From IMG/VR virus record IMGVR_UViG_3300043395_001957, positions 1 to 62,622 of that record: a stretch of 62,622 nt of DNA; one strand, 5' to 3'. Below are positions 5,019 through 62,622 of this stretch, one piece after another; within the stretch, counting starts at the first letter, position 1, and every line of letters begins with the position of its first letter. This DNA comes from a virus. Below the pieces are notes generated by a model. The model worked only from the letters and a program-made list of their open reading frames with translations. It made no database searches and was not told where the DNA came from. The position numbers and the translations under genes were made by a program.

Positions 5019-5956
5019 TTCAATACTGATTTAGATGCTGTTTTTTGTATCCAATCCCAATATCTTCTACTTGCTGTATTCTCTTTGATATTTAATTCTT
5101 TATCATATGGTAATTCGCTCATCCATTGTGCTTTGTAAAATAGTCCATCATTTGGTGATGTTACACCAGCGTTATGCATAATGTTTAATCTAAAATAATC
5201 CGCTTCTGATGAAGTTCCCCAACTGAAATCAAATTCAGGCAAACAATTTGTTTTCCACCCCCTTCTCCATGCACCCCAAAGAACTGCCCACATATCCGAA
5301 CACCATATTTGTAGTTCGTGATAAGTAGGATTCTCCTTTTTGATTTCGTTATTTAATTCAGTTACCTGTTTGAATAATTGTTCACAATCTCTTTCAACTC
5401 TATCCCAAAATTCATAATCAACACCTTTCATCAAATACTGCGCACCAATAGCGTTCATTTCGTTGTCTCTAATCAATGATTCTGGCAAATCCATAATCTC
5501 ACACATCTTATCAATTATCTGCTGACCTTTGCCAACTATGTAAGAATGTGCTATATACCAACGGGTATCTGAACCATACCATTCTTCATCGTTTCTTATA
5601 TCAGTACTAATCCATTCAGAAATTGATTTAGAAAATATGATATCTGAATCGTGATAGAAGATTGCTTCATCTTTTAAATAAGGATGAGCTGCCCAATGTT
5701 GTTTAAGAATATTAGGTCTGATTGATGAAATGTAATGTTTGGTTTCTCTCGTATCGTTATAGAAAAAGAAACGAGCCGGATATCCGTTAGCCAACTTTGA
5801 CCATTCTTCAGGTATTACTCCGTTTTGTTTCCAACATACAATATCTATGAAGTTTGGATTTACACCCATCTCCATAAAATTATTTAGCATTACTTCAACT
5901 TGCCAAGCGTAATATAGTGTGGCTGGTTGTGCGCATACAAATCTTAATTCTTTCAT
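5015..5956 (-). CDS. DxD-containing glycosyltransferase-like protein (A)
   Basis: A 313-residue protein with a GT-A style layout. The N-terminal strand FVCAQPATLYYAWQVEVMLNN is followed by RPNILKQHW and then EAIFYHDSDIIFSK with D103-S-D105 as the likely metal-binding DxD. The spacing of YxxWQ, RPxxxxxxW and the acidic motif recalls the hydroxyproline arabinosyl- and peptidyl-serine galactosyl-transferase families, a resemblance I see by eye and cannot test. It lies directly downstream of the Thr-linker tail genes and overlaps the EHD protein. Unit B has a close copy at 37574-38539. Confidence 0.65.
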   Translation of the reverse strand: MKELRFVCAQPATLYYAWQVEVMLNNFMEMGVNPNFIDIVCWKQNGVIPEEWSKLANGYPARFFFYNDTRETKHYISSIRPNILKQHWAAHPYLKDEAIFYHDSDIIFSKSISEWISTDIRNDEEWYGSDTRWYIAHSYIVGKGQQIIDKMCEIMDLPESLIRDNEMNAIGAQYLMKGVDYEFWDRVERDCEQLFKQVTELNNEIKKENPTYHELQIWCSDMWAVLWGAWRRGWKTNCLPEFDFSWGTSSEADYFRLNIMHNAGVTSPNDGLFYKAQWMSELPYDKELNIKENTASRRYWDWIQKTASKSVLK

Positions 5957-8788: not shown

Positions 8789-8789
8789 A

Positions 8790-10811
8790 TTATGGGCAAT
8801 TATAGAATGAACCAATAGTACCATTGAAATCAATGAATGATGCGTACTTACTATAATAGTAAGGGAATCCCCACTTCCAATAGCTATATCCACCATTAAA
8901 TGGAGTAGTTAGGCTTGAATCGGTAAACAATTGTGTTACTGCTGCTGGATTATTTGTAGCTGCATATACAACAGTTGGATAGTAATAAGTGTTACTACAA
9001 GCAGCAGTATCACTTCCCCATCCTGCATTACCAATTACATATGCGTAAGATGTAACAGGCGGAGTAATACCACCGACAGAGCCTGATAAACCTGTTCCTG
9101 CTATTCTAACTAATGGTGTTGAAGCAAATGTTGTTTTAACTTCAAACTTACCTTGTGAGAAGAAGTTTGTTGTATCAGTATAATATGTTTTACCATATTC
9201 TCTATTTGCTTCTTTACTGAATTGTTGAGAAAGATAGTCTTGGTCTAATGTATCACCAAAGTTAAGTTGATTCACAGCTAAGTTATTCGCTGGAATTACT
9301 TCTATCTTCTCATCTAAGTTTATGTATTTATTGAAATCTTTTACTTGTCCTTTTTTGTACCAATTATTAAATGTTTCAATTATGAACTCATTTGATTTGG
9401 TTTTATTAGGGTATATTACTAAGTTAAACTTCTTTTGTAAACCTGTAATGAAATCAATCTGCTTAATTCCATTTGTACCATACGGCATATTCGATGGAAT
9501 ATCTACAATCCTACCATCAGCAGCTTGGTTTACTTGCGTAATTTGTATATACGATTTCGTAGTATTATCAGGGTCCAGAGTTACAACTGGCTGTTGAGTT
9601 GGTGCTGCAAAATTAGGTCTTTGTCTTATTTGGAAATAATATGTACCTGCAGGAATGCCATACAATTTAAATTGTGTTTGTAATTCGTATGTTTGATTTA
9701 TACCACCCGTTCTGCTATTTTGTAATTGGTCAAAGAATATAATGTAAGATTGTATAGCAGTTAAACCATATGCAGTTGAACTACCTGTTTCTACCATTTG
9801 TATCTGCCACGTACCATTAGCACTAAAAGTACCAGGCATATTATTTACAGAACAACTTACATTCACATTTAGATTTAAAATACCTTCTAAATTTGTTTTT
9901 TGTTCTACTCTATATGCACCATTCTGATAAAATCCTTGCGGGTCTGATAATGTATTATACCAAGGTAAAGTAACAAAAGTATTTGATGGTAAAGTAATAT
10001 CAGTCATACCACTACCACTAATTGCACCTACCTTTATTTTACCATAGGTTTCCAAATCAACTTCGTTGAACTCTGGGTATTTTAGTGAATGGTTACAAAT
10101 CATATATACATCATTCATAAATGGTTCATTCATAAATGATGATGAGTATGTATATCCAGCTTCTTCAAAGATTGCATCTAATACTTTTTTAACTCTGATT
10201 GCAGGTTTAAAGTTTTGTACAGTTAGTGCACCATCGTTATCATTCATTCCAAATGTTTGGAAATCACCTTGTGCGTATTGATATCCCGTACCATAATCGG
10301 CAAGTGGATAAACTATATCACCATTGAAAAGATTACCATTCCAACTTGCTGAAATATTATCGTAAGATGCAGTATGGTTATACTTTTGTAGTGATGTTAA
10401 GTTTGTTAAATAATTTCTATTGATATCTCTACCAAAAGATGATAGAGTACCATATATTGTTACTTCATATGAATCGATAAATTTATTTGCTAATACATTC
10501 ACCTTATTCAGCTGAAGATATCCGTTTGACAAATATACTGAGTCAAAATCAAAGTAAGCTGGTACTTTAATATTTGTTGCGAATAAGAATGGATTATCAA
10601 TTGATATATCATACACATGCTCAAAGAAAGCATTATTTACCTTTGTACCTGGCAAAGTAATTTGACGAGTAAAATCAGATGGTAATACTCCTATATCAAA
10701 TAAACCTGTTACATTGTTAGATAACTGAATATCCTCATCTGCAAAAAGGTCCAATTGTTGCCCATTGGCTATTAATCGAAAGGTAAATCCTTGCGTTGAT
10801 ATAACTCCCAT
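8790..10811 (-). CDS. Tail/baseplate structural protein (A)
   Basis: A 673-residue protein homologous to 42798-44912 in B. The first ~170 residues are well conserved (VTGLFDIGVLPSDFTRQITL, FFEHVYDISI, NPFLFAT, GYLQLNKVNV, FIDSYEVTI). A middle part contains IPSNMPYGTNGIKQIDFITG and KKFNLVIYPNKTK, and a block at about 500-580 has NLAVNQLNFGDTLD and REYGKTYY. The C-terminal ~100 residues differ from B. The order next to connectors and fibres suggests a tail-tip or hub component; no enzymatic motif seen. It ends 2 bases before the next start. Confidence 0.7.
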   Translation of the reverse strand: MGVISTQGFTFRLIANGQQLDLFADEDIQLSNNVTGLFDIGVLPSDFTRQITLPGTKVNNAFFEHVYDISIDNPFLFATNIKVPAYFDFDSVYLSNGYLQLNKVNVLANKFIDSYEVTIYGTLSSFGRDINRNYLTNLTSLQKYNHTASYDNISASWNGNLFNGDIVYPLADYGTGYQYAQGDFQTFGMNDNDGALTVQNFKPAIRVKKVLDAIFEEAGYTYSSSFMNEPFMNDVYMICNHSLKYPEFNEVDLETYGKIKVGAISGSGMTDITLPSNTFVTLPWYNTLSDPQGFYQNGAYRVEQKTNLEGILNLNVNVSCSVNNMPGTFSANGTWQIQMVETGSSTAYGLTAIQSYIIFFDQLQNSRTGGINQTYELQTQFKLYGIPAGTYYFQIRQRPNFAAPTQQPVVTLDPDNTTKSYIQITQVNQAADGRIVDIPSNMPYGTNGIKQIDFITGLQKKFNLVIYPNKTKSNEFIIETFNNWYKKGQVKDFNKYINLDEKIEVIPANNLAVNQLNFGDTLDQDYLSQQFSKEANREYGKTYYTDTTNFFSQGKFEVKTTFASTPLVRIAGTGLSGSVGGITPPVTSYAYVIGNAGWGSDTAACSNTYYYPTVVYAATNNPAAVTQLFTDSSLTTPFNGGYSYWKWGFPYYYSKYASFIDFNGTIGSFYNCP

Positions 10812-14812: not shown

Positions 14813-15175
14813 TTAGTTCATTATAATATATTCGTTAGAGCTATCCGCTGAGATTGAGCCACTATTAATAGGGATTTGGTTAATGTATTCAGGCTTAGAT
14901 ACTGATTGAGAACCAAATATTTGAATACTACCATTCCATAATTCAGTAGTTCCATTTGTCAATGTAGCTCTAAACTCTTGTCCTACATAAGCACCTACAA
15001 TACTTGCTGTAAATGAAACCATACTCTCACATGCATTATATGATGCAGATGCGATTGAAGCAGTTGAATTAGTTTGTGTCAACATATCCTGTAATGACAT
15101 TGTGAACGAATTAGATGGGCTCTGACTCGTTCTAATTGTGTATCCATTGCTGCCAGATATAAAATAAGTAAGCAT
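14813..15175 (-). CDS. Small virion protein upstream of the portal (A)
   Basis: A 120-residue protein homologous to the first ~125 residues of 48953-49453 in B (MLTYF-GG-N-YTIRT, QNMLTQ-like, CESMV, SQSV-KP-Y-NQIP). The B copy has a Thr-linker tail that this one lacks. No family recognised. A two-part YTAC-like/TGTTAAATA element precedes it, downstream of the tube terminator. Confidence 0.7.
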   Translation of the reverse strand: MLTYFISGSNGYTIRTSQSPSNSFTMSLQDMLTQTNSTASIASASYNACESMVSFTASIVGAYVGQEFRATLTNGTTELWNGSIQIFGSQSVSKPEYINQIPINSGSISADSSNEYIIMN

Positions 15176-24687: not shown

Positions 24688-25296
24688 TTACTGGTATTTG
24701 CTGAACCATAATCTTTTATCTTCTTCCTTTATTGGATTGAATTCTGCTCTTCCGCTTGTTTGTTCGGATTCTCCACTCATTTTCCAATGCGTTATTTCAT
24801 AGTTCTGCTTTCCGCTTTTGTTGAACAACCAATCATCTCCGTAATGTACTTTTAAATCTTCAGGTATTTCTACATAAGAGTTTTTATGGATAGCAAATAC
24901 ACAACCATAACAATTAGGTCTATTCTTAATCGGTGCTACTCCACCACTACGATGTGGTCCTTGCCAACAGGTCACACCTGCTCCTATCATTCCTCTATCT
25001 TCCGTAATGTATTCTTCTAACTTATCTACAAAACTCCAATCGGTTTCCACATCATCGTTTACAAAAAGAAGTTTGTCGAACTTTGCTAATCGGTATCCTT
25101 TGTTCCATGCAGGGTTTACATAGGTGTTCTTACCTTCTCTTATGTGTACTACCTTTTTGAAATCTTCTAAATGTATTTCATCTGGTGTGTTATCTATTAC
25201 GATTATCTCTCCTACGGATTTGATTTCGTTTAGTGCTCTTATTGTTTCTATCCCTTCTCTTCCTTGCCACATTGTGGGCATTATTACTGATATCAT
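24688..25296 (-). CDS. GT2-like glycosyltransferase (A only)
   Basis: A 202-residue protein with a GT-A layout: MISVIMPTMWQGREGIETIRAL, EIIVIDNTPD, NPAWNKGYRLA, LLFVNDDVETDW (DDV as the metal motif) and GDDWLFNK with a likely catalytic acidic pair. It would transfer a sugar from a nucleotide donor; acceptor unknown. It sits 1 base behind the methyltransferase as a two-gene insert between the zinc-finger protein and terS, where unit B has a different small gene. Confidence 0.8.
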   Translation of the reverse strand: MISVIMPTMWQGREGIETIRALNEIKSVGEIIVIDNTPDEIHLEDFKKVVHIREGKNTYVNPAWNKGYRLAKFDKLLFVNDDVETDWSFVDKLEEYITEDRGMIGAGVTCWQGPHRSGGVAPIKNRPNCYGCVFAIHKNSYVEIPEDLKVHYGDDWLFNKSGKQNYEITHWKMSGESEQTSGRAEFNPIKEEDKRLWFSKYQ

Positions 25297-25297
25297 A

Positions 25298-25843
25298 TTA
25301 GTCGATTTTAGATTTGCTTCTTATTCCCCAAAAGTAAAGGTCATCAGGGTTTCTATTTTCTTTAAATTCGTATTCACTAAACCATATATCCAATGGAAAG
25401 TGTTCGAAATCTTCTCTATTTAAATTTTTATAATAATCGTTTTCGATTTGTGATGTGAATGGTGAATCTTGCGGTGATGTTCTTCTCGTTCCATGCTCTG
25501 GTCTATTTGCTGATGCACAACTGAATACTACCATACCGCCTTCCTTTGTTAATCTTACCATATTTGCGAATGTCAAAACCCAATACTCATCGTGCTCAAA
25601 ACATTCTGATGAAATGGTTACATCGAATAGTTTGTTTGATTTGAATTCGTGTCCTCTACTTACTACATCTACATTTGGTCCATTACCAATATCAATGCCA
25701 GTATATTCCGCATTGGTAAAAAGATATCTATTGTTTCCATTGATGTCCAAAGAGCCTACATCTAATACTCTTACACCACTAAATTTGTGTGGGAATCTAT
25801 CCCTTACGCTTTGCATAAATGCTTGTTGTTGCGAATGCGCCAT
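25298..25843 (-). CDS. SAM-dependent methyltransferase (A only)
   Basis: A 181-residue class I methyltransferase. Motif I is VRVLDVGSLDINGNNRY, the acidic strand-2 end is YTGIDIGNGPNVDVV, and FDVTISSECFEHDEYW and MVRLTKEGGMVVFSCA follow. No DNA-recognition domain is visible. Its coupling to the GT2 gene suggests modification of a sugar or host surface molecule rather than DNA, which is inference. Confidence 0.8.
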   Translation of the reverse strand: MAHSQQQAFMQSVRDRFPHKFSGVRVLDVGSLDINGNNRYLFTNAEYTGIDIGNGPNVDVVSRGHEFKSNKLFDVTISSECFEHDEYWVLTFANMVRLTKEGGMVVFSCASANRPEHGTRRTSPQDSPFTSQIENDYYKNLNREDFEHFPLDIWFSEYEFKENRNPDDLYFWGIRSKSKID

Positions 25844-27723: not shown

Positions 27724-28248
27724 TTATTTTAATCTTTTATTCAAACTCATTCCTAACTGATGGAAGTGGTTAATCATTGTGTATTCAATATTTCTAAGTG
27801 TTTCCTTATCAGTACCAGCCATGTCCAATATAACCCACTTATGTTTATCATAACCATAAACATCAAATGAATGATGTAAGTATGGCATTACTCCATTGTT
27901 TAGTTTATATTCTTTCTTATGTGCATTTCTTCTATAACTGAAAAGAGTTTGGGTGCTCCCCACATATACACGTTGCTCTGGGTTGATTATCAAATACACT
28001 GCTGATTTACTATCATCTGCACATACATTCTCTTTAGCCCATTGATTACAATATGCTGACCACTTCTTATGATTCTTTCTTTGCCAATCAATTTGGTAAG
28101 TAGGCTTTGTTTGTCTAAAATTTTTATTGTTTTCTTTTACACAACTTTTGCAGTTTGTTTGCAATAAATCAGGAGATGCTGCTCTTTTGTGAAATTGTGT
28201 TAGTGGTTGATGCTTACCACACTTTGAACATTGTTTTGTTGTTGCCAT
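27724..28248 (-). CDS. Zinc-finger GIY-YIG endonuclease (A)
   Basis: A 174-residue protein with an N-terminal CSKCGKHQPLTQFHKR...CKSC finger and a C-terminal GIY-YIG domain (VYLIINPEQRVYVGSTQTLFSYRRNAHKKEYK, then a Glu-containing NIEYTMINHF near the end). This is the architecture of phage homing or intron-type nucleases. It occupies the early region where unit B has a different GIY-YIG gene, consistent with independent insertion. Confidence 0.8.
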   Translation of the reverse strand: MATTKQCSKCGKHQPLTQFHKRAASPDLLQTNCKSCVKENNKNFRQTKPTYQIDWQRKNHKKWSAYCNQWAKENVCADDSKSAVYLIINPEQRVYVGSTQTLFSYRRNAHKKEYKLNNGVMPYLHHSFDVYGYDKHKWVILDMAGTDKETLRNIEYTMINHFHQLGMSLNKRLK

Positions 28249-30883: not shown

Positions 30884-31372
30884 ATGTTTTACATTTATCA
30901 CATACCAGGAGTTAAAATAGGTTGCTCTACACAACCAAAAACGAGAGTAAAGAGACAAGGATACGATTATTATGAATTATTAGAAACTCATAATGATATC
31001 AATATTGCTTCTCAAAGAGAATTAGAATTACAAAAAGAATATGGATATAAAATAGATTCAACTCCATATAAACAAAGTTATGAGTGGGTAACAAAAGGTA
31101 ACCCATCAATTGAACCAATGTTAGATGGTTATAGAAAATGGGTAAAAGAGAACCCAGAAAAAGTAAAAGAAAATGCTAGAAATGGTGGATTAAAGCAAGG
31201 TCCAATTCAAGGTAAAAAAAATGTTGAAAGTGGTCACATATCAGCATTAGGTAAAAAAAATTCAGAATTTAATAATCGCATTAGAACATGTCCTCATTGT
31301 AATATTGTAACTAGAGGTGTTGGTTATGAAAGATGGCATGGTGATAAATGCCGAAATAAATCTAATCCTTAA
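30884..31372 (+). CDS. GIY-YIG homing-type endonuclease inserted on the plus strand (A only)
   Basis: A 162-residue protein: N-terminal GIY-YIG-like part (MFYIYHIPGVKIGCSTQPKT, then RVKRQGYDYYELLET, a Glu in RELELQKEYG), a middle with KENPEKVKENARNGGLKQG repeats, and a C-terminal CPHCNIVTRGVGYERWHGDKC finger. It is opposite in strand to its neighbours, sits between two genes that are adjacent in unit B, and overlaps the MPVN gene tail to tail by 11 bases. All this points to a mobile homing gene. Confidence 0.8.
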   Translation: MFYIYHIPGVKIGCSTQPKTRVKRQGYDYYELLETHNDINIASQRELELQKEYGYKIDSTPYKQSYEWVTKGNPSIEPMLDGYRKWVKENPEKVKENARNGGLKQGPIQGKKNVESGHISALGKKNSEFNNRIRTCPHCNIVTRGVGYERWHGDKCRNKSNP

Positions 31373-31694
31373 AATCAGGATGGTCTTCTTCCGGAATACA
31401 GTTTGGCACAGAAACTCCACCCATATCCTTCATACCCAATTGGCGGTATCCACTTTGGCACGGGTCTTCACCTTCTTCAGCTAATAAATTAATACCTTTG
31501 AATTTAGTATCATAAGCTACTCTAGCCATTACTTTAGCTGATGTATCTTTTATCTTACTCATATTTTCTTTTTCCCAATATGAGTAGCAAATAGCAGCTG
31601 AAACATCTTGTTCTTTACCTGATGCTATTTCTTCTCCTATACAACGGCTGATGAACTCTTGTTCAGTTTCGCCTGCTCTTACATTTACTGGCAT
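31362..31694 (-). CDS. MPVN small protein (A side)
   Basis: A 110-residue protein: MPVNVRAGETEQEFISRCIG then EE-AAICYSYW, a pattern of small structural-region proteins in Bacteroidota phages. The C-terminal half (DPCQSGYRQLGMKD...VPNCIPEED) has two Cys like the B copy (DACWEGYEAIG...VPNCVP). Its first codons lie in the shared 136-base stretch. Function not known; the AAICYSYW motif is sometimes attached to structural or protease-associated proteins. Confidence 0.8.
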   Translation of the reverse strand: MPVNVRAGETEQEFISRCIGEEIASGKEQDVSAAICYSYWEKENMSKIKDTSAKVMARVAYDTKFKGINLLAEEGEDPCQSGYRQLGMKDMGGVSVPNCIPEEDHPDFKD

Positions 31695-31786
31695 TAGTTA
31701 TCTACTTTATATGTTTTATTATTAAAACGAACTTTATATACTGTATTAAAGTCCAATGTTCTCCAATCTCCATCTAATCCAACAAC
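31651..31786. repeat. 136-base stretch shared exactly by units A and B (internal copy)
   Basis: This stretch spans the start of the 110-residue MPVN gene and the end of the next 110-residue gene. It matches 62496-62622 and continues as 1-126. Mismatches flank it: base 31650 is g where 62495 is t, and base 31787 is a where base 127 is g. It is the point at which unit A sequence changes into unit B sequence. Confidence 0.9.
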
Positions 31787-33217: not shown

Positions 33218-35341
33218 TTATCCACCACTTAGCGTAGCAGCAACATTTGTACGGCGGTCTAAAGCCTGTTGTGAACTAACTTGTTGTGATACAACATAGG
33301 TTTGAATAGGCCTTTGTTGAGACATTGCTATACTTTGTGCGATTTGTGATGATGGATTTGCTCCTGTTGTTGTTTGTATTTGAGGTGTTGCCATTGCTGC
33401 AGGTGCTCCACCATACGATGGAGGTGGTGCAGATGGAGATGCAGCTGCGCCTGATGATGATGGATTATCAGTATTAGTAGAATTAATTTGTTGTATTGAT
33501 TTAACTGCTGATGCAACAGTTGATGCAATACTTAAACCTGCTGATATCGTGTTTATTGCGACCCATGGCATACCACCTGTTAATGGAGATGCCGCTACTG
33601 ATTTAGCATTTGCTATTGCAGTATTTGCAATAATCTGCCCAATTGCTGCTGCCTGTTGTATAATTACACCAGCGATTGCTATACCTTTTGATTTACCTGC
33701 AACTTGTTGTAATAGAGAACCGAATTGTGAGAACAATCCTAAATAAGCCATATTGATTTCGTGCTTAGCTGCTGCTGCCGCTTTTTCGGTTGCTATTTCA
33801 CCATCGGTAATTTTACGTCTTTCATCTGCAAATTTCTTACGGATTTCAGTACGCTGAAATTCTGTTAATTCAGTATTTTCTAATTCTATTCTTTCTTGCT
33901 CTGCAAGTATTTCTCTTTGTTGTTTGAATCTCTCTAAATCCTGCTCAAAATCAAAATCAACCAATTGATTTTGTCTATCTAAATCTTCTAAACGAGTTTC
34001 TAAACCTACAAGTAAGATACCTCTTTCTTCTTCTTGTCTTTTAAGAAGTTCTTCTTTCTTCTTATCATCAATTTCTTTTTGTTTATCGGCATCTTCTTTT
34101 GCAAACTTATCTTTCATTGAAGTAAGTTCAGCCTGTCTACCTGCTTCTAATAATGCAGTATCTTGATTGTATTTTGTAGCAGTTGCAACTAATGCTGAAT
34201 ACTTTTGGTTTATTTCATATTCAGTTCTTTCTCTTTCGGTTAAAGTTGCTTTAAATGCATCTTCTTCACCTTTACGAATCTCACCTAATTCACTCTCTCT
34301 TAATCTTCTTTGTTCTTCAATCTCTTTTTCTTTTTGCTCTCTTTTCTTATCAGCAGCTTGTTGATTCTTATCAGCTATTTCTTTATTTTTAGCTGCTTCT
34401 TCTTTAATCTCTTCTGCTCTAGCATTATAACCAGTTTCTTGATAAGTAGCATAAGCATCTTTTGTAGCCTGTTGTCTCTTGTCTAAATTATCTGATACTT
34501 TCTTAAATGCTTCTGCATCTAACTTACCTAAACTTTCATTATACAATTTTACAGCCTCTTGCTCTGCAGCAAATGCAGCTTGATAATCTGCGTATGATTG
34601 GTCAATATTATATTTACGGATTTCGGCTTCAGATTTACCTTGCGCTTTCATTTGAGCAATGGTAACCTTTCTTCTATTCTCTGCTGATTTTTGGTTTAAA
34701 TCTAATAAAGCCTGTTGTGATTCTAATGCGGCATTTGTTTTATCAATTGCTCTTTGTAATTCTTTTTCACCTGTTGCAGTTTTATATAACTCCGTAGCCA
34801 TTTCAGATAAAGCACTTACTGCTAAACCGATAGCAACAACGATAGCACCAACACCAGTAGCGGTTAATGCTGCTGCGAATGCTCTAGCACCAACTGCAGC
34901 CTGTCCTTCTGCTATACCAACTGCTGTAAATGATTTGGCTAAAAATCCATTTATAACTGAATATACTTTGGTTACACCCGTAAGTTCACCAATACCTTTA
35001 GCAATATCAGTAATATCATTACCCAATTCAACGAATGAGGCTTGGATATTATTTAATTTAAGACCTGAAAATTGTTTTAATGTTGCAATTGTACCACCAA
35101 CTTGTCCGCCGATAGCACCAATTGGACCAGGTAATTTACCTAATACATCAGCAAAGTTACCAGCACCTGCTCTAGCTCCTGCTAAAGAGTCCTGAATATC
35201 ATCAATCTGTCTTTGTAAGTTGATGAACTCCTGCGAACCAGCGGCAGTTTCTTTTAGCTGCTTTTTTAATTCTCTAAGCTGCGCTAACGATGGTTCAATA
35301 TTGGTTTGTATATCAACCTCTACATCAATTTTTTCTGCCAT
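33218..35341 (-). CDS. Tail tape measure protein (B)
   Basis: A 707-residue copy of the unit A tape measure, one residue longer, so tail length should be the same. Same order: helical start, hydrophobic Gly/Ala part, long charged coiled coil, second hydrophobic part, and a Ser/Pro/Gln-rich C-terminal region that is the least conserved piece (SSSGAAASPSAPPPSYGGA) before SQQALDRRT. Confidence 0.9.
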   Translation of the reverse strand: MAEKIDVEVDIQTNIEPSLAQLRELKKQLKETAAGSQEFINLQRQIDDIQDSLAGARAGAGNFADVLGKLPGPIGAIGGQVGGTIATLKQFSGLKLNNIQASFVELGNDITDIAKGIGELTGVTKVYSVINGFLAKSFTAVGIAEGQAAVGARAFAAALTATGVGAIVVAIGLAVSALSEMATELYKTATGEKELQRAIDKTNAALESQQALLDLNQKSAENRRKVTIAQMKAQGKSEAEIRKYNIDQSYADYQAAFAAEQEAVKLYNESLGKLDAEAFKKVSDNLDKRQQATKDAYATYQETGYNARAEEIKEEAAKNKEIADKNQQAADKKREQKEKEIEEQRRLRESELGEIRKGEEDAFKATLTERERTEYEINQKYSALVATATKYNQDTALLEAGRQAELTSMKDKFAKEDADKQKEIDDKKKEELLKRQEEERGILLVGLETRLEDLDRQNQLVDFDFEQDLERFKQQREILAEQERIELENTELTEFQRTEIRKKFADERRKITDGEIATEKAAAAAKHEINMAYLGLFSQFGSLLQQVAGKSKGIAIAGVIIQQAAAIGQIIANTAIANAKSVAASPLTGGMPWVAINTISAGLSIASTVASAVKSIQQINSTNTDNPSSSGAAASPSAPPPSYGGAPAAMATPQIQTTTGANPSSQIAQSIAMSQQRPIQTYVVSQQVSSQQALDRRTNVAATLSGG

Positions 35342-35584: not shown

Positions 35585-36457
35585 TTAAAACAAGTGGATG
35601 TAATCCGAATGATTTCCCCAATATGGGTGTTCAGTAAATAAATTATCTTTTTTGTAGATAGAATAGTGTGATGTAAAGTGTGAGCCGTGATTGATATGAA
35701 TATTAGGATGTTCTGCATTCCACTCATTCATTTTTAATTGTGGTTCTAATAATCCACTATTAGTTACCAATGCATTTGGTAGAAGCGATTCAAAATGCTT
35801 TATAGCATCATCAAACAACATTGTTAATTGTGATGTAGGTTTATCGTTTTGTCCACGTGGCTGAAATCCATCTTTATTCATTCCTATATAATTCATATTA
35901 GCAAGAATACCCTCATCAAAATCAGGGTAATCAAAATATCCTTCAGCATAAACTAAATCATGCTCTAAAAAACTTACATATTTGTAATCACCACTTTGTC
36001 TTGCTGTATATAGTAATTGTAGTACTTGCAGTATTTGATTCAAATGTGATGATGTTTGTGTCCAAGCAATACACTCATAAAATGGATTGTGTGGTTCGTG
36101 TTTCCACATACACGTTAATATATCTGCTTTACCTTCTGCTGCTTTACGAATACTTTCTAACGATGCTCTAATAGCAGGATAGATTCTTTCGTTTATATTG
36201 TTTGAATAGAATATACCTAAACGATTTGTTTTAGGTTTAGGTATTGTAAGTAAAGAACCTTCTCTAACTTCTTCAGTTACTAATTCACCATCTATTTCTG
36301 CTTCAATTTTTAAATACTTAACAGTACCAACTTGCGGGTCTCCGCATATGTTATTATCGGCTCTAACTAATAAACGGCCGTTTACTACTTTATCACGTAT
36401 TTGTTGTGTGCAATCTCTATCACCATATACTGCTGATTTTATCTCCATAGATGCCAT
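35585..36457 (-). CDS. Glycosyltransferase-like protein with EHD motif (B)
   Basis: A 290-residue copy of the unit A EHD protein: N-terminal DUF3395-like domain (KSAVYGDRDCTQQI, LLVRADNNICGDPQVGTVKYL), NRLGIFYSNN, YVSFLEHDLVYAEGYFDYPDF, and the His-rich end HINHGSHFTSHYSIYKKDNL. It is the last gene of a four-gene overlapping cassette and overlaps the FkbM gene by 19 bases. Confidence 0.6.
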   Translation of the reverse strand: MASMEIKSAVYGDRDCTQQIRDKVVNGRLLVRADNNICGDPQVGTVKYLKIEAEIDGELVTEEVREGSLLTIPKPKTNRLGIFYSNNINERIYPAIRASLESIRKAAEGKADILTCMWKHEPHNPFYECIAWTQTSSHLNQILQVLQLLYTARQSGDYKYVSFLEHDLVYAEGYFDYPDFDEGILANMNYIGMNKDGFQPRGQNDKPTSQLTMLFDDAIKHFESLLPNALVTNSGLLEPQLKMNEWNAEHPNIHINHGSHFTSHYSIYKKDNLFTEHPYWGNHSDYIHLF

Positions 36458-36963
36458 ACGCCTACTCTGTTTATATCTTCGTTACCTAACTGATAAAGTT
36501 GATGATTAGTAAATCCCCATTCAACCATCTTTTGTTCACATAAGATACGAGTAGGGTCATTATGATATTCAATTGCTATTTCATCTACAAATTCAATCAT
36601 TTCTTTTGTAACATTTTGAAAGTGTATTTCAGCACCTTCAATATCACATTTGATAACCTGTGGTTTATAATGTTCTAATAAATCTTCTATTTGCTTATCA
36701 GCATTAACACATAATTGAAATGTATAATATATACCTTTGTTTCCATACAATTGATGATACTTCTCAATATCATGTGCAGCGCAATCAAATCCAATTAATT
36801 TACTTGCACCTTTAGAAACAAAATATTCAGATGATGATAACCATCCTTCATTCCATGTACTATCCCAAAATGAACAGCCCATGTCCATTACAATTTTGTT
36901 TTCACAATTTAGAAATCTCCAATGGATTTCAGGGTTTTCTGATGTTATTTTTTCTATTTGCAT
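36439..36963 (-). CDS. FkbM-family methyltransferase (B only)
   Basis: A 174-residue methyltransferase. Residues 24-33 (IVMDMGCSFW) form the SAM-binding strand and loop. VIKCDIEGAEIHF at 103-115 is the FkbM hallmark, followed by FVDEIAIEYH. FkbM enzymes usually O-methylate sugars or small molecules. It sits between the oxygenase and the EHD glycosyltransferase with overlapping ends, so it probably works on the same glycan or protein target. Confidence 0.8.
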   Translation of the reverse strand: MQIEKITSENPEIHWRFLNCENKIVMDMGCSFWDSTWNEGWLSSSEYFVSKGASKLIGFDCAAHDIEKYHQLYGNKGIYYTFQLCVNADKQIEDLLEHYKPQVIKCDIEGAEIHFQNVTKEMIEFVDEIAIEYHNDPTRILCEQKMVEWGFTNHQLYQLGNEDINRVGVWHLWR

Positions 36964-37577
36964 AATTCGTAGTATCCTCCTATATCAAATTTTACTTTTG
37001 TATTAATCGCTTCACCTTCTTGCACACTCCACTTACTAAATGGAACAATTCTAAAATCCACAGAAACCCTACTCCTGTTCGTTTGGTTGAGTTTATTTCC
37101 GTGAGTTAACCGAACACCTTCCCACATAATAAACTCTCCGTATTGAGCTTCTAATGGGGTATAATCACCCTTATCTTCTTCACTCTCTGCCCAAATAGTA
37201 TTGGTATCAAAAGCATCAGTAAAAGGTAAAAAGAAATTAATCTCTGCTTGGTTATGATTATATTGTTTATCCTTATGCCATTCACCAACACCTACATTGT
37301 TTGGTGCTTGTATTCTGAATGTTGGTATTTTTTGATACACAATTGGTTCGCCGAATAGTGGCATTACCTGTTCTTTAACAAAATCATCGTATATTGGTTT
37401 CATATACTGAAAATTATCATAGTATTTTCTATGCACTTCAGTTTTTTGGTCATTTTCTCTTTTAAGTAAGTCAAATTGATATTGTTTATGCAACATATTT
37501 AACTCCTTTGTACCATAAATCAACCCTAATACTTCCAAAAATGGATAAGTTTGGGTATTATAATCTAATTTTATCAT
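36954..37577 (-). CDS. 2-oxoglutarate/Fe(II) oxygenase-like protein (B only)
   Basis: A 207-residue protein with the iron triad spacing of 2OG dioxygenases: WHKDKQYNH (H101, D103), distal LTHGN (H159) and a 2OG-binding Arg in RSRVSVDFR (about R168/R170). A jelly-roll reading is supported by alternating strands (AEINFFLPFTDAF, FIMWEGVRLTHG). Such enzymes hydroxylate amino acids, peptides or sugars. Overlaps of 4 bases upstream and 10 bases downstream tie it to the glycosyltransferase and FkbM genes. Confidence 0.75.
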   Translation of the reverse strand: MIKLDYNTQTYPFLEVLGLIYGTKELNMLHKQYQFDLLKRENDQKTEVHRKYYDNFQYMKPIYDDFVKEQVMPLFGEPIVYQKIPTFRIQAPNNVGVGEWHKDKQYNHNQAEINFFLPFTDAFDTNTIWAESEEDKGDYTPLEAQYGEFIMWEGVRLTHGNKLNQTNRSRVSVDFRIVPFSKWSVQEGEAINTKVKFDIGGYYELCK

Positions 37578-38539
37578 AACAATTTACTTTTTTGTGCTGT
37601 TTTTTGAATCCATTCCCAATATTTTTTACTTGCAGTTTCATTTTTTATATCTAATTCAACATTATATGGTAAAGAGTTCATATATTCAGCTTTATAAAAA
37701 AATCCATCTTTTGAAGATGTTACGCCTGCATTGTGCATTATATTCATTCTATTGAAATCTAATTCACCTGATGTACCCCAACTGAAATCAAATTCAGGTA
37801 AACAATTTGTTTTCCATTCTCTTCTCCATGCTCCCCATAATACTGCCCACATATCAGCGCACCATATTTGTAATTCGTGGTAAGTAGGATTATCTTTTTT
37901 GATTTCGTTGTTTAAATCAGTTACCTGTTTAAATAATTGTTCACAATCTCTTTCAACTCTATCCCAAAATTCATAATCAACATTTTTCATCAAATATTGC
38001 GCACCAATAGCGTTCATTTCGTTGTCTTTAATCAACGATTCTGGCAAATCGGTAATCTCACACATTTTATCAATTATCTGCTGACCTTTGCCAACTATGT
38101 AAGAATGCGCTATATACCAACGGGTGTCTGAACCATACCAATCATCATCTATGATAATTTGTTTGTTTATCCACTCATTTATTGGTTTAGAAAATATGAT
38201 ATCTGAATCGTGATAGAATATAGCATCATCTTTTAGATAAGGATGTGCTGCCCAATGTTGTTTAAGAATGTTAGGTCTGATTGATGAAATGTAATGTTTA
38301 GTTTCTCTCGTATCATCATAGAAAAAGAAACGTGCTGGATACCCGTTAGCCAATTTAGACCATTCTTCGGGTATCACTCCATTTTGCTTCCAACATACTA
38401 TATCAATGAAATTTGGGTTAACACCCATCTCCATAAAGTTGTTTAACATTACTTCTACTTGCCACGCATAGTAGAGTGTTGCAGGCTGTGCGCAAATAAA
38501 TCTTAATTGCTTATCCGCATAAATTTGTATGCCATTCAT
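37574..38539 (-). CDS. DxD-containing glycosyltransferase-like protein (B)
   Basis: A 321-residue copy of 5015-5956, with the same FICAQPATLYYAWQVEVMLNN start, RPNILKQHW and AIFYHDSDIIFSK DxD motif. The N-terminus is seven residues longer (MNGIQIYADKQL). A TGTTAAATA element stands upstream, so the four-gene modification cassette could be expressed on its own. It is preceded by the Thr-linker tail gene. Confidence 0.65.
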   Translation of the reverse strand: MNGIQIYADKQLRFICAQPATLYYAWQVEVMLNNFMEMGVNPNFIDIVCWKQNGVIPEEWSKLANGYPARFFFYDDTRETKHYISSIRPNILKQHWAAHPYLKDDAIFYHDSDIIFSKPINEWINKQIIIDDDWYGSDTRWYIAHSYIVGKGQQIIDKMCEITDLPESLIKDNEMNAIGAQYLMKNVDYEFWDRVERDCEQLFKQVTDLNNEIKKDNPTYHELQIWCADMWAVLWGAWRREWKTNCLPEFDFSWGTSGELDFNRMNIMHNAGVTSSKDGFFYKAEYMNSLPYNVELDIKNETASKKYWEWIQKTAQKSKLL

Positions 38540-38554
38540 ATATCATTCGTTTAT

Positions 38555-38563
38555 TATTTAACA
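38555..38563 (-). promoter_or_regulatory. TGTTAAATA element before the modification cassette (B)
   Basis: GTTGTTGTTAAATA on the minus strand, 15 bases before the ATG. No clear YTAC box at 18 bases. Unit A has no matching site before 5956. Confidence 0.35.
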
Positions 38564-38580
38564 ACAACAAACGATTTTGT

Positions 38581-40821
38581 TTATAAACAACCACCATCAC
38601 ATTGAACTTGCAAGTCCATATATAAGTTAGTTCCAACATCACCTGATACAACTGTATATCCAGGAGAAACATACGATGGTATTGAACCATTGTTTTGACA
38701 AGCTGCGTCTGTTATTTCACCTGTTACAACAATATTCGTATAAGTGCTTCCACCACCAGTACATTGGTCAGCATTACATCCAACACTAATCACATCACCA
38801 ACATAGACAGTATAGGTTCCAGATGCCGTATTATTTCTTGTTTCAACAGATACAGAATTTATATATAAATCGTATATACCTTGCCCACCAGCAACTTCAC
38901 TAAAACTCCAATATAAAGTAGCAGATGCACCAGTAGTTGTTGTAGTAGTCGGTGGTACAGTCGTAGTGGTAGTAGTTGGTGGTACAGTGGTTGTTGTAAC
39001 ACAATTACACGAAGTTCCACCATATGTTACGAATGAAATAGTTGCACCTACACCAAATAGTGAGCCGTTTTGTAAACAATCATTAATAACTTGTGGTCCT
39101 ATACCAAATGTTAAGTAAATAGTATTTCCACAGCAATCTACATATCTTACATCACCTGCTGAATCAACTTCAAAACTTACTGATGTTACACAAGCAGATG
39201 TTGTAGTGGTTGTAGTTGGTGCTAGTGTTGTAGTTGTAGTAGTCGGCGCTGCGGTTGTAGTGGTAGTAGTCGGTGCTGCAGTTGTGGTTGTTGTAGTTAC
39301 ACCACATGCAGTATTACAATTTATAGAATTACCAACAGTTGTCATTATAATTGCAGGTGAACAAGGACTAAATAATTGTGTAAAGTTTTTATATACAAAA
39401 CCAGTTATTGATTGTGGTTTATAATATCTGTTTGATGTTACAATTGAACTACCTGCAGGGAATGCAACACATACGGCACTTTGTACAAAAGTACAAGGGT
39501 CACAACTATATTCATCTGCCTCATAATAATCATATGGTGATGCAGTAGTTGTAGTAGTTGTAGGTACTTGTGTAGTTGTTGTTGTAGTTGGAGCTTGTGT
39601 AGTTGTTGTTGTACTTGTAGTAGTACTTGGACAAGTTCCACAAGTTAAACTCCATTGAGCGGTATCAGATGTTGGGTTTTCCGGGTCCGCTGGTCCATAC
39701 TCAACCATTACATATCTTCCGCTTGTTGATGCGAAATCATATGTGAAGTTTCCGCTTGGTGAAACATTCAATGATACTCCCCACGGACCTGGCCACGTTG
39801 CGTATCCAACCCAACCTGATGTTGCTATTAAACCAGTTGAATCGTAAAGATTGAATCTATTAGGTCTATCAATTGCATCATAAGTAAATGTACCACACTC
39901 ATTTGAAGTAGAACATACAACCTGTGTTGGGTACTGACCATATGCAGTATCAGATGTATTAAATGTTATCGTTCCATCACCACAAGAATAACAAGCTTCT
40001 GTTGTAGTAGTTGTAGTAGTTGCAGCTGTTGTAGTAGTTGTAGTAGGTGCAGCTGTTGTAGTAGTCGTAGTAGTAGTTGTACTTGTAGTGCTTGTTGTAG
40101 ATGTTGTAGTTGTGGTAGTTGTTACACAATCACAATCACTATTTTTAGTTACACTAAACCAAGTATTATTTGGAACTATTATACTTCCACTAACTAAACA
40201 AGATGTTAAACTTTTTGGATTAAAATAACTTAATAATTCAGCTTGAGGTTCACCAGTTTCACAATTTAGATAATATACAAATGCAGTATTAACTCCGTTA
40301 ATTTGTACAGTATCATTATCACAATTACATATATTGAACGAGCCTGTTCCGCATGGTACACCTAAATTTGGTATAGTGCTACAATTTCCTTGCGGTGCTA
40401 CACTACAATTTATAGTTTCTATAATTTCTCTTGCGCAAATATATCTTATTACTCCTGATGAGAAAACATGTACTCTTTGAACACCATAGCAATCTATGTA
40501 AGTAAGAGTAGCTGGATTTGCATTTCTTACTACTGAATAATTTATACATGTCGGACATAATGTTGTAGTTGTACTTGTAGTTGCTATTATATCAACAACA
40601 CTATTTCCATTACATTCAGCACCACCATTTACAACTTTTAAACAAGCAGCATTATCGGGAACAGTGACTACTACCGATGAGCCAACTGATGGCAAATAAA
40701 CATTATTACCATCTATACAAATGGTATAGTTTACACAATCCGTAGAATAGTAGACATCAAATAAAGGACCAGCATCTGCTCCTTTACCTGTTAATGTTAT
40801 TTGTTTATTTATGTTTGGCAT
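38581..40821 (-). CDS. Long modular tail protein with Thr-rich linkers (B)
   Basis: A 746-residue version of 5984-7276. The N-terminal ~80 residues match (MPNINKQITLTGKGADAGPL). Then come five or six small Cys-containing domains separated by Thr runs with AAP, QAP, VPP and LAP breaks. One domain (ACYSC...CGTCP, core DAIDRPNRFNLYDSTGLI) is shared with A but sits at another place in the chain; the others are not. The C-terminus (SATLYWSFSEVAGGQGIYDL) is new. This is direct evidence of domain gain and shuffling at linker repeats. Confidence 0.75.
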   Translation of the reverse strand: MPNINKQITLTGKGADAGPLFDVYYSTDCVNYTICIDGNNVYLPSVGSSVVVTVPDNAACLKVVNGGAECNGNSVVDIIATTSTTTTLCPTCINYSVVRNANPATLTYIDCYGVQRVHVFSSGVIRYICAREIIETINCSVAPQGNCSTIPNLGVPCGTGSFNICNCDNDTVQINGVNTAFVYYLNCETGEPQAELLSYFNPKSLTSCLVSGSIIVPNNTWFSVTKNSDCDCVTTTTTTTSTTSTTSTTTTTTTTTAAPTTTTTTAATTTTTTTEACYSCGDGTITFNTSDTAYGQYPTQVVCSTSNECGTFTYDAIDRPNRFNLYDSTGLIATSGWVGYATWPGPWGVSLNVSPSGNFTYDFASTSGRYVMVEYGPADPENPTSDTAQWSLTCGTCPSTTTSTTTTTQAPTTTTTTQVPTTTTTTASPYDYYEADEYSCDPCTFVQSAVCVAFPAGSSIVTSNRYYKPQSITGFVYKNFTQLFSPCSPAIIMTTVGNSINCNTACGVTTTTTTAAPTTTTTTAAPTTTTTTLAPTTTTTTSACVTSVSFEVDSAGDVRYVDCCGNTIYLTFGIGPQVINDCLQNGSLFGVGATISFVTYGGTSCNCVTTTTVPPTTTTTTVPPTTTTTTGASATLYWSFSEVAGGQGIYDLYINSVSVETRNNTASGTYTVYVGDVISVGCNADQCTGGGSTYTNIVVTGEITDAACQNNGSIPSYVSPGYTVVSGDVGTNLYMDLQVQCDGGCL
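38925..39005 (-). repeat. Thr/Pro linker repeat (B, last linker)
   Basis: ACN tracts with two VPP breaks encoding TTTTVPPTTTTTTVPPTTTT. Pro-containing unlike most A linkers. Confidence 0.8.
39195..39303 (-). repeat. Thr/Pro linker repeat (B, fourth linker)
   Basis: Three to four near-identical units of six Thr plus AAP or LAP, the most regular linker in the window. Confidence 0.85.
39540..39640 (-). repeat. Thr/Pro linker repeat (B, third linker)
   Basis: Units of Thr runs with QAP and QVP breaks between the shared ACYSC domain and a YEADEYSCDPC domain. Confidence 0.8.
39990..40125 (-). repeat. Thr linker repeat (B, second linker)
   Basis: Longest linker of this gene, about 45 residues with Ser, AAP and AA breaks, directly before the shared ACYSC domain. 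Confidence 0.85.
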
Positions 40822-40830
40822 AATATTATA

Positions 40831-42798
40831 TTATATACTTCCCGAATATCTTGTTTTGTCTGCGTACCAGTTTTGTGATATTTCAGCATCACTTAATGCT
40901 CTATTATATGCTCTACAAATACCAACTTTTCCACTCCAGTTTCCAGCGGGTAAATCATTACCAGGCATCATTAAACTTGCAGTTGAATATAATGATGGAG
41001 AAGATGTTTCAAATTTAGTAAATCTACCAGCTTTAACACCATCAACATAGCTATATATATTTCCATCTGAATCATCCCACTTAACAACAAATTGATGCCA
41101 ACTTCCTGTTGGTGTTAAAGCAGTTTGCAATCCATCTTGATAAGTTGTTCCGAATCCAGGATTATTAAAACCTGTAACTAAAGCTGATGAGCTATATGGT
41201 GCAGTTAATTGGTCTGTATATGTAGCTATTGCATATTCAACAGGAGAAATTGTACCATTTGAGCCAACTATAAAGTTATCAAAATCAGGTGAAGGGCTTC
41301 CATAAAAAGGTCTATTAAACCAAATTTCAAATGTAGTTGCTCTAGAACTACTTACTACATTACTAAATAATCTATTAGTTAAAATAGCAGAACCCGTGAA
41401 ATCCATATACGATGAACTACTATTTGATACAAAGTTTGTACTACCAGAAATTATACTACCTGTAACTAATGAAATTAAATCAGTAATAGATGAGCCACTT
41501 CCAGGATATGATTGTGTTTTACCGAAATCGTAATATAATTGTAATGATTGCGTAACAGCAGTAGTATTAAAATTCCATATTACTTTTATTGAAGAATACA
41601 AATCAGTATTAACCAAATTACTTACACCAATTTGATTAGAAGTTTGGCTTCCAGATGCAATCGCAAATAATAAAGTTGAATCGCCATAATACGATGCAGT
41701 CCAACTAAAATTATATGTATTATCAAATTTCACATCAGTTGCAATAGTTTGAGTTCCAGTTACATATGTGGAGCCAGTAAATAAATTATTACCTGTACCT
41801 ACTGGCGATTTATTAATCACATATAATGAAGATGGAGGAGATGTTAAATCACCCATACTACCTGTTATCACATTTAAACTACTACTTAATTCCAAAATAT
41901 ATGTTTTATTAGGTGGATTAATAGTAGTAGTTGTTGTAGTAGGTGCTACAGTTGTTGTACTAGTCGTTGTAGTTGCTGCGGTAGTCGTAGTAGTTGTACC
42001 AGCAGCAGTAGTTGTTGTTGTAGTAGGAGCAGCAGTAGTAGTTGTACTAGTAGTACTCGTAGTACTTGTAGTAGTTGTACTAGTGGTGCTCGTTGTTGTT
42101 GTAGTTGGCGCAGCTGTTGTTGTTGTGCTCGTAGTACTTGTTGTAGATGTTGTAGTAGTAGTAGGAGCAAGTGTTGTAGTAGTAGTTGGACCTGCAGTTG
42201 TAGTAGTAGTAGGGCCAGCTGTTGTAGTTGTTGTTGTTACAGTTTGTGAATCAAAATCAAACAAACAAGTTATTGTTTTATTAGCTGATGCAATTACATC
42301 TTCTAATATTGGACCTAATAATTGAATCTTACACTCACCATTAGATAAGTTGTAATCATTGATTGCACGAAGGTGATAGTAATTTCCTCTCCACTCAACA
42401 ATATCATTAAGTTCCATTTTAAAATAATCAGCAAGAGGAATAATACCTTCGCAGTTTATTAAACGAGTTTTTGGATTATAAAGTAAAGATACATATGTTT
42501 CCCAATAATTTGTATAAAGAGAACCTGTTGGAGTTGTACCATATACTGCTGGTTCATTGAAGAAAAGAAGTGAACGAGAGCCCGATGTAGGGTCTTGTCC
42601 TTCATAGTTATCAAAATAAGGAAATGAAGTTACTTCTGTAGATACAACACTACCTGTATTACCGTTTGAATATCCTTGAATATAATATGTTTCACATGCT
42701 TTTAATCCATTATAGAAATAAATGTGCGGCAGGACTCTAGCAGGTGCGTAATTCACACTACTAATAAATGTCGGTATGTATATCTTATTCTTCGCCAT
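40831..42798 (-). CDS. Tail fibre/receptor-binding candidate with LamG-like domain (B)
   Basis: A 655-residue copy of the unit A LamG tail protein. The N-terminal ~190 residues are conserved (IYIPTFIS, YWETYVSLLYNPKTRLINCEGIIPLADY). The Thr linker is about twice as long (near 190-300). An extra ~110-residue domain (TYILELSSSLNVITGSMGDL onward) lies before the LamG part (SLQLYYDFGKTQSYPGSGSS, WFNRPFYG, VGICRAYNRALSDAEISQNW). The upstream gene's stop overlaps this start by one base. Probably binds host surface glycans. Confidence 0.75.
   Translation of the reverse strand: MAKNKIYIPTFISSVNYAPARVLPHIYFYNGLKACETYYIQGYSNGNTGSVVSTEVTSFPYFDNYEGQDPTSGSRSLLFFNEPAVYGTTPTGSLYTNYWETYVSLLYNPKTRLINCEGIIPLADYFKMELNDIVEWRGNYYHLRAINDYNLSNGECKIQLLGPILEDVIASANKTITCLFDFDSQTVTTTTTTAGPTTTTTAGPTTTTTLAPTTTTTSTTSTTSTTTTAAPTTTTTSTTSTTTTSTTSTTSTTTTAAPTTTTTTAAGTTTTTTAATTTTSTTTVAPTTTTTTINPPNKTYILELSSSLNVITGSMGDLTSPPSSLYVINKSPVGTGNNLFTGSTYVTGTQTIATDVKFDNTYNFSWTASYYGDSTLLFAIASGSQTSNQIGVSNLVNTDLYSSIKVIWNFNTTAVTQSLQLYYDFGKTQSYPGSGSSITDLISLVTGSIISGSTNFVSNSSSSYMDFTGSAILTNRLFSNVVSSSRATTFEIWFNRPFYGSPSPDFDNFIVGSNGTISPVEYAIATYTDQLTAPYSSSALVTGFNNPGFGTTYQDGLQTALTPTGSWHQFVVKWDDSDGNIYSYVDGVKAGRFTKFETSSPSLYSTASLMMPGNDLPAGNWSGKVGICRAYNRALSDAEISQNWYADKTRYSGSI
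41925..42240 (-). repeat. Very long Thr-codon linker of the LamG tail protein (B)
   Basis: About 315 bases of ACN repeats with TCN, GCN-CCN and AGP breaks encoding over 100 residues, the largest low-complexity tract in the window. Confidence 0.9.
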
Positions 42799-48952: not shown

Positions 48953-49453
48953 TTATGGTATTGTCGTTGTTGTTGTAGTCGGTGCTAATGTGGTTGTAGT
49001 AGTTGGTGAAGCAGTTGTAGTTGTAGTAGCTGGTGCTGCTTGGTCCCAATACTTAAATGTATTATTAGTATCCGCACTTATAAATGTTTCCTCATATGGT
49101 ATTTGGTTTACATAATCAGGTTTTTCTACTGATTGTGATGCAAATACTTGCAAAGAACCATGCCATACCGGGTCTAAATAAGTAAATGGTGTTGTTGATG
49201 ATGTAATAGCAGGTGTTAAGAACATTCTATACTCATCACCTATATTTACAGTCAATGCAATATCCAAATCAAAAGATATATCAACCATGCTTTCGCATTG
49301 GTTATAAGACCATTGACCAGGACTATTTAAAAAAGAATAGTTCTCTTGCGTAAGCATGTTTTGAACATCAACTCTTAAATAGTTACTGCCAGACGGTATT
49401 TGAGCCGTTCTTATCGTGTAATTATTGTATCCTCCGAGAAAATATGTTAGCAT
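48953..49453 (-). CDS. Small virion protein with Thr-linker tail (B)
   Basis: A 166-residue version of 14813-15175. The first ~125 residues are homologous (MLTYFLGGYNNYTIRTAQIP, CESMVDI, SQSVEKPDYVNQIPYEE). After that it adds KYWDQAAPATTTTTASPTTT-type repeats and stops inside the repeat, with no domain after it. The A copy ends before the repeat. Acquisition of a linker without a cargo domain is unusual. Confidence 0.7.
   Translation of the reverse strand: MLTYFLGGYNNYTIRTAQIPSGSNYLRVDVQNMLTQENYSFLNSPGQWSYNQCESMVDISFDLDIALTVNIGDEYRMFLTPAITSSTTPFTYLDPVWHGSLQVFASQSVEKPDYVNQIPYEETFISADTNNTFKYWDQAAPATTTTTASPTTTTTLAPTTTTTTIP
48958..49040 (-). repeat. Terminal Thr/Pro repeat of the small virion protein (B)
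   Basis: ACN tract with ASP and LAP breaks forming the very C-terminus of the gene; same sequence type as the linkers near 39200 and 42000. Confidence 0.8.
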
Positions 49454-62239: not shown

Positions 62240-62539
62240 TTATTCCTTTATAGGTACACAATTGGGAACTTCTCTACCATCTAAAATCTTTGTACCTATG
62301 GCTTCATATCCTTCCCAACAGGCATCCTCTAATCCTTCTAATAAGTTTATACCTTTCCAAGCATCTTGTCTTAATTTAGATGCTACTTTACCTTGAGTAC
62401 TCATATTGGTATCTTTTCTCCAATAGGAGTAACAGATAGCAGCTGCTTGCTCTTGTTCGTATCCACCTGATACTTCTTCTCCTATACAACGGCTTATGAA
62501 CTCTTGTTCAGTTTCGCCTGCTCTTACATTTACTGGCAT
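62240..62539 (-). CDS. MPVN small protein (B side)
   Basis: A 99-residue relative of 31362-31694. The first 14 residues are identical, AAAICYSYWRKD is kept, and the C-terminal half has DACWEGYEAIG and VPNCVPIKE. In this unit it directly precedes the membrane coiled-coil gene, with no nuclease inserted. Confidence 0.8.
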   Translation of the reverse strand: MPVNVRAGETEQEFISRCIGEEVSGGYEQEQAAAICYSYWRKDTNMSTQGKVASKLRQDAWKGINLLEGLEDACWEGYEAIGTKILDGREVPNCVPIKE

Positions 62540-62622
62540 TAGTTATCTACTTTATATGTTTTATTATTAAAACGAACTTTATATACTGTATTAAAGTCCA
62601 ATGTTCTCCAATCTCCATCTAA
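62506..62622. repeat. Terminal direct repeat, right copy
   Basis: Identical to bases 1-117. The shared stretch starts 10 bases earlier, at 62496, and is cut by the end of the window. Confidence 0.95.
62539..62622 (-). CDS. Partial: 3' end of the 110-residue protein gene
   Basis: Last 27 codons and stop of the gene found whole at 34-366; cut by the window end. The sequence is the same as 34-117. Confidence 0.9.
   Translation of the reverse strand, partial: LDGDWRTLDFNTVYKVRFNNKTYKVDN

Follow-up and report, generated by a model that had tools for sequence, protein, structure and literature searches.

What is the role of enzyme genes that lie directly beside Thr-rich tail genes in a virus? The question is raised by IMG/VR virus record IMGVR_UViG_3300043395_001957, the whole of which (62,622 nucleotides; hereafter the window) was analyzed. 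Within it, four minus-strand open reading frames (ORFs) at 35585–38539, here called cassette B, overlap successively by 4, 10 and 19 bp and follow two genes for tail-region proteins with Thr-rich linkers. The original prediction, made from the sequence alone, was that an oxygenase hydroxylates residues of these linkers, a DxD glycosyltransferase adds sugar and a methyltransferase modifies the sugar. The overlapping genes are real, and the motifs that were named are all found (listed below). We consider it highly probable that they belong to a dedicated virion O-glycosylation system, in which poly-Thr tags or linkers are the acceptors and Thr receives its initial sugar from the DxD enzyme; a residue hydroxylation step is unlikely. 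The genes in question are as follows.

37574–38539, minus strand: predicted DxD glycosyltransferase (321 aa; HDSD with D111 and D113; PHROG 4417), the constant gene of the cassette
36954–37577, minus strand: 2OG-Fe(II) oxygenase-like protein (207 aa; WHKD giving H101-x-D103, and H159), optional
36439–36963, minus strand: FkbM-like methyltransferase (174 aa; CDIEGAE), optional
35585–36457, minus strand: predicted EHD glycosyltransferase (290 aa; EHD at 165–167), with a GT2-like domain behind an N-terminal beta domain
38581–40821, minus strand: tail-region protein, proposed acceptor; in relatives, the gene immediately upstream of the DxD gene encodes a homologue
40831–42798, minus strand: tail-region protein, proposed acceptor; weak match to phrog_8510, a virion structural protein family (E 4e-9)
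48953–49453, minus strand: Thr-tagged protein adjoining the portal gene, proposed acceptor (166 aa; C-terminal tail TTTTTASPTTTTTLAPTTTTTTIP)
33218–35341, minus strand: tape-measure-like protein (phrog_339, E 1e-4), downstream boundary of cassette B; this order is kept in relatives

The DxD gene was found by tblastn in 74 phage records, mostly from Gram-positive hosts, plus one Chryseobacterium phage. Among its carriers is prophage PLE3 of the laboratory strain Lacticaseibacillus casei BL23; the tags of this host genus were read in other phages. In all nine of the phage records that were read, a protein adjoining or near the DxD gene carries a Thr-rich tail or linker. The tag is either a tail of the TTTTTTKPTTTTTTT type at the C-terminus of a major capsid or tail protein or a Thr linker. 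Tagged capsid proteins end in TTTTTTKPTTTTTTTQA or TTTTTTKAPTTTTTSSHA and tagged tail proteins in TTTTSTTTTTTSSTTTTTTTQASSK or TTTTTTTTTTRHD, while SAC12B has a looser repeat (TTVAPTTVKP); Pro-free tags such as TTTTTTTTSA are common. Among bacterial genomes, poly-Thr tags were seen on one to three proteins in 37 of 40 enzyme-bearing loci, a count in which three tagged loci were scored by reading tails that fell below threshold. IMG/VR loci with room upstream had a Thr-rich ORF in 50 of 68 cases, and for 42 of these 50, no more than 125 bp separate the end of that ORF from the enzyme gene. Several contigs have internal TTTTTTKPTTTT motifs and no DxD enzyme. The gene next after the capsid gene encodes a protein of ∼100–110 aa, which often has the same Thr tail (L372, L374, L377, L379, L384, L388 and L396); since this tail is shared with capsid and tail proteins, at least three virion genes would carry the tag.

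Besides the genes, the conserved motifs and the modeled folds, the analysis shows that the enzyme and the tag are coupled. Joint occurrence of the DxD gene and Thr-tract virion proteins across unrelated phages had been proposed as a check, and it was found both in control families and in whole records. In four families of homologous virion proteins, tag and enzyme are present or absent together, with one exception. For an Enterococcus capsid family with protein bodies 55–85% identical, 55 loci have enzyme and tag and 11 have neither (2 versus 3 after dereplication at 98%). The analogous counts are 3 and 11 for an enterococcal tail family, and 24 and 5 for a Bacilli tail family (Fisher P = 8e-6), whose untagged members terminate in PEGA or PEGV. 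For the Bacteroidota tail module, there are 43 loci with both, 13 with neither, 1 with the tag only (L132) and 0 with the enzyme only. On the Bacteroidota tree, tag and enzyme change 8 times each, and 6–7 independent pairs change jointly, with 0 against (sign test P = 0.016–0.031). Most IMG/VR records are fragments; among whole records of ≥24 kb, an (ACN)7 tract encoding Thr7 is present in 17 of 19 that bear the enzyme versus 0 of 19 enzyme-free relatives (Fisher P = 1e-8). The 19 enzyme-bearing records came mainly from loci without a tract seen near the gene, a conservative choice. No (ACN)7 tract of any kind was found in 30 whole records of enzyme-free relatives.

Several observations weigh against a glycosylation system built on this pairing. 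L132 is a clean exception, with Thr linkers and no enzyme in its 13.3-kb fragment; no other glycosyltransferase was seen nearby in that fragment, a question only touched on here. Two enzyme-bearing records of 24–30 kb lack a Thr7 tract, and the three remaining loci of the 40 above (L393, L395 and L398) have no tags and surroundings that are not phage-like. Many enterococcal loci are near-copies of one another, and the Bacilli tree yields just one well-supported independent contrast. Nor is the cassette always close to the tail genes: some relatives have it elsewhere. Finally, the glycans themselves are a prediction from the genes, motifs and folds and from the coupling of tag and enzyme.

Might the glycosyltransferases instead act on a host surface glycan, in superinfection exclusion or receptor change, with the Thr linkers serving as mere flexible spacers? 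Phage glycosyltransferases that modify host surface glycans are common, and three DxD homologues do lie outside phage loci. Serotype conversion by phage has been summarized elsewhere (PMC12619734). This explanation leaves unaccounted for the joint gain and loss of tag and enzyme in four virion protein families, as well as the absence of any Thr7 tract in enzyme-free relatives, and we regard it as most improbable.

What kind of enzyme, then, does the constant gene encode? The DxD protein matches the unannotated family PHROG 4417 over residues 13–314 of 321 (E 1e-59). It has no Pfam family match, and the same holds for reference members of the family against Pfam glycosyltransferase families; a PDB sequence search with the DxD profile returned nothing useful. 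An AlphaFold2 model of the protein (predicted local distance difference test score, pLDDT, 94.7; predicted template modeling score, pTM, 0.90) is a GT-A fold, nearest to GT8 enzymes. The search of solved structures gave glycogenin (Z 15.1, root mean square deviation (rmsd) 3.4 over 223 residues), LgtC (Z 14.2, rmsd 3.7 over 237 residues) and GlyE (Z 13.3, rmsd 3.4 over 211 residues). A comparison with predicted viral structures placed Orf49 of Lactobacillus phage LP65 and an uncharacterized phage protein closest, neither of which carries a name. GT8 enzymes hold Mn2+ via the DxD pair and a distal His. Residues D111, D113, H269 and K283 of the DxD protein are invariant across 36 close relatives, and their equivalents (D95, D97, H243 and K257, where H243 is numbered as in the Enterococcus protein) are invariant in a wider alignment, whose members include sequences from Enterococcus, Staphylococcus, Lactococcus, Lactobacillus and Chryseobacterium phages. 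The homologues at L393, L395 and L398 are distant ones, from Mucilaginibacter, Dysgonomonas and a delta-proteobacterium metagenome-assembled genome, and two of them are much longer proteins.

We propose that the product of the last gene of the cassette extends the glycan. Its model (pLDDT 90.6) resembles GT2-type structures (Z 14.9 with an rmsd of 2.5 over 163 residues, covering residues 74–256 of the model). The EHD protein is by this model a second glycosyltransferase, with a GT2-like GT-A domain at approximately residues 76–258. E165, H166 and D167 are invariant in 22 relatives, and the protein has no Pfam family match. Residues 1–75 form an N-terminal beta-rich domain that is barely covered by the fold search. 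Structure prediction and fold searches of these two ORFs, suggested at the outset as a check, thus gave GT-A folds for both, and together with the co-occurrence of the DxD gene and Thr tracts they support the proposal of a virion glycosylation system acting on Thr linkers.

Is hydroxylation part of the pathway? A second cassette in the window (A) is informative here, and comprises the following genes.

5015–5956, minus strand: predicted DxD glycosyltransferase (86% identity to its B counterpart)
4167–5018, minus strand: predicted EHD glycosyltransferase (57% identity to its B counterpart)
5984–7276, minus strand: Thr-linker protein (7 Thr runs)
7286–8896, minus strand: Thr-linker protein (5 Thr runs)

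The only enzymes of cassette A are the DxD and EHD glycosyltransferases; the oxygenase and FkbM genes, which in cassette B are placed between the two glycosyltransferase genes, are missing here and from most DxD relatives. The closest profile to the oxygenase is TIGR04324, ‘sporadic carbohydrate cluster 2OG-Fe(II) oxygenase’ (E 3e-14). Because it scores 53.1 bits against a cut-off of 150, the sequence is best taken as a relative of that family rather than a member. The oxygenase gene was seen in only 6 relatives, and a PDB sequence search with its profile gave nothing useful. The FkbM-like protein scores below the cut-off of TIGR01444 (18.7 bits versus 37.7; E 0.0018) and matches AdoMet methyltransferases in the PDB (best E 0.00025); its CDIEGAE motif is kept in 11 relatives, and we propose it as a putative sugar O-methyltransferase. 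No isolated phage was matched by tblastn with the EHD, oxygenase or FkbM proteins, so the support for these three comes from IMG/VR contigs only. We take the oxygenase and FkbM genes to be probable sugar-tailoring genes that occupy a variable slot.

The original prediction had the oxygenase act first, on Pro or Thr of the linkers, with the DxD protein, as a relative of plant hydroxyproline (Hyp) O-arabinosyltransferases, glycosylating the new hydroxyl. In favor of this scheme, the oxygenase gene directly follows the DxD gene in cassette B, its iron ligands are present and there is some Pro in the tracts. Yet cassette A and nearly all relatives have enzyme and tags without an oxygenase, many tags have no Pro and the oxygenase resembles a carbohydrate-cluster family. 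The by-eye likeness to the plant enzymes was not borne out with the Pfam HPAT profile (PF23452): a comparison made with that sequence profile only, covering phiFL2B and the contigs L001 (identical to B), L002 and L003 (identical to A), gave no match even at E 10. Hydroxylation is not needed, because Pro-free tags and oxygenase-free cassettes are the rule, and we judge an oxygenase-first pathway to be highly unlikely.

The contents of the slot downstream of the DxD gene vary widely among 80 loci. Slot representatives match GT2, GT6 and GT25 families, DXD sugar-binding transferases, FkbM and other methyltransferases, radical SAM/SPASM proteins and an NAD-dependent epimerase. Such variety is consistent with one constant enzyme for priming and exchangeable ones for the tailoring that follows. 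The radical SAM/SPASM protein, encoded directly after the DxD gene in related loci (L016:1319–2401 and relatives), is an unusual partner in a glycan cassette.

The DxD enzyme and the tags could also cooperate in another way, with a host enzyme priming Thr and the phage enzyme only extending the glycan. Likeness of fold cannot separate a peptide acceptor from a sugar acceptor, and GlyE, an O-glycan-extending GT8 enzyme, is among the fold matches. DxD–tag pairs, however, span many Bacillota host genera, which seem unlikely to share one priming enzyme, and a constant priming enzyme with variable followers is a better fit to the data. Priming by the host therefore strikes us as doubtful in the extreme, if conceivable, and we prefer priming by the DxD enzyme itself.

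The tracts in the window bear on what the acceptor would be. Runs of ≥4 Thr number 15 in 38581–40821 and 12 in 40831–42798, and the longest is 9, versus a mean of 4.4 and a maximum of 7 for the longest run in composition-preserving shuffles. Neighboring Thr codons are mixed (ACA, ACT, ACC and ACG), which slippage of triplets alone would not account for. The linkers had been described as rich in both Thr and Pro. They are rich in Thr, and Pro is a minor component (12 of 138 residues in the tracts of 38581–40821). The Thr-tagged product of 48953–49453 is additional to the proteins named in the original prediction, and its homologue in the other half of the window (14813–15175) lacks a TTTTTASPTTTTTLAPTTTTTTIP-like tail. 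A match of 38581–40821 to PHROG 14018, ‘major tail protein’, spans the Thr tract alone and was rejected as evidence of homology.

In the mechanism that we propose, sugar would be accepted by poly-Thr tags or linkers that form part of capsid, tail and neck-region proteins. Using a nucleotide sugar as donor, the DxD enzyme (PHROG 4417) would attach the first sugar to hydroxyl groups of Thr; this would happen in the cytoplasm, either ahead of assembly or while it proceeds. In Bacteroidota phages, the GT2-like EHD enzyme, along with a varying complement of methyltransferases, oxygenases and further glycosyltransferases, may then extend or decorate this sugar. The outcome would be a mucin-like coat on the particle, different from phage to phage, which could act in masking, adhesion or stability. 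We infer the catalysis, the acceptor, the order of steps, the sugar identity and the benefit (masking or adhesion). A broader idea seems reasonably likely to us: that a short poly-Thr tail and a constant GT8-like priming enzyme make up a portable tag, which has spread between Bacillota and Bacteroidota phages and become joined to a range of capsid, neck and tail proteins, and that a rapidly evolving tailoring slot gives each phage its own glycan coat.

Do the two cassettes belong to one genome? The window contains two homologous halves (A, 1–31660; B, 31661–62505), and an exact repeat of 117–126 bp occurs three times (1–126, 31661–31786 and 62506–62622). In contigs from other samples, A closes on itself: L002 and L003 run from the left end of A directly into ∼32020–28681, the right end of A, at 99.5% identity. 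L001, the contig identical to B, ends at 31660, exactly at the repeat. Given this run-through and this stop, the record is best read as two co-occurring ∼31-kb phage genomes joined in assembly via the shared repeat, and cassettes A and B probably come from two different phages. Judging from relatives only, we take their host to be a member of the Bacteroidota. Half A alone has, near the terminase gene, a GT2-like glycosyltransferase gene (24688–25296) and a methyltransferase gene (25298–25843), possibly a second glycan-related pair. Two ORFs on opposite strands (30884–31372 and 27724–28248) resemble GIY-YIG-type homing endonucleases by eye.

These findings suggest a function for an unannotated family of phage proteins, members of which occur in dozens of sequenced isolates, among them phages and prophages of Enterococcus and Lacticaseibacillus. 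They predict glycosylated particles in many tailed phages outside those of mycobacteria, and provide a search signature: Thr6–8 close to the C-terminal end of a capsid or tail protein. Glycans on the virions of mycobacteriophages change how antibodies recognize them, and hence such coats may be relevant to gut phage ecology and phage therapy. The enzyme–tag pair could also serve as a simple tool for O-glycosylation of proteins in bacteria.

How does the proposed system compare with those already known? The GT8 enzymes glycogenin, LgtC and GlyE are the nearest solved folds to the DxD protein, which like them has a conserved DxD; its invariant distal His, H269, is a candidate third metal ligand. 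Identity is ∼10%, and the DxD protein has no Pfam glycosyltransferase match. Serine-rich-repeat adhesin and mucin-type O-glycosylation are similar in having a low-complexity Ser/Thr tract, a priming enzyme and variable extenders. Their acceptors are cellular surface proteins, whereas here the acceptor would be a virion protein and the enzyme is phage-encoded. The closest precedent lies in mycobacteriophages Che8, Corndog and Myrna, whose capsid and tail tube are glycosylated (Freeman et al. 2023, as cited in passages of PMC12363180 and PMC12619734); in Corndog, an O-methyltransferase and glycosyltransferases are encoded in the structural operon, between portal and protease (PMC4351075). The original prediction held that no phage system of this kind had been described. 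For virion glycosylation in general this does not stand, given these three phages; for the pairing of Thr tag and enzyme it does, as far as the literature searched shows, in which no description of a poly-Thr virion tag was found. As those cited passages present them, the mycobacteriophage systems resemble the one proposed here in that phage-encoded glycosyltransferases, with an O-methyltransferase in Corndog, modify capsid and tail tube subunits near the C-terminus. Che8, whose enzymes are the ones compared, differs in that the profile of the DxD family finds no match in gp108–gp110 and that poly-Thr tails are missing from its capsid and major tail proteins, whereas the phages described here combine a repeated Thr tag with one constant enzyme across Bacillota and Bacteroidota.

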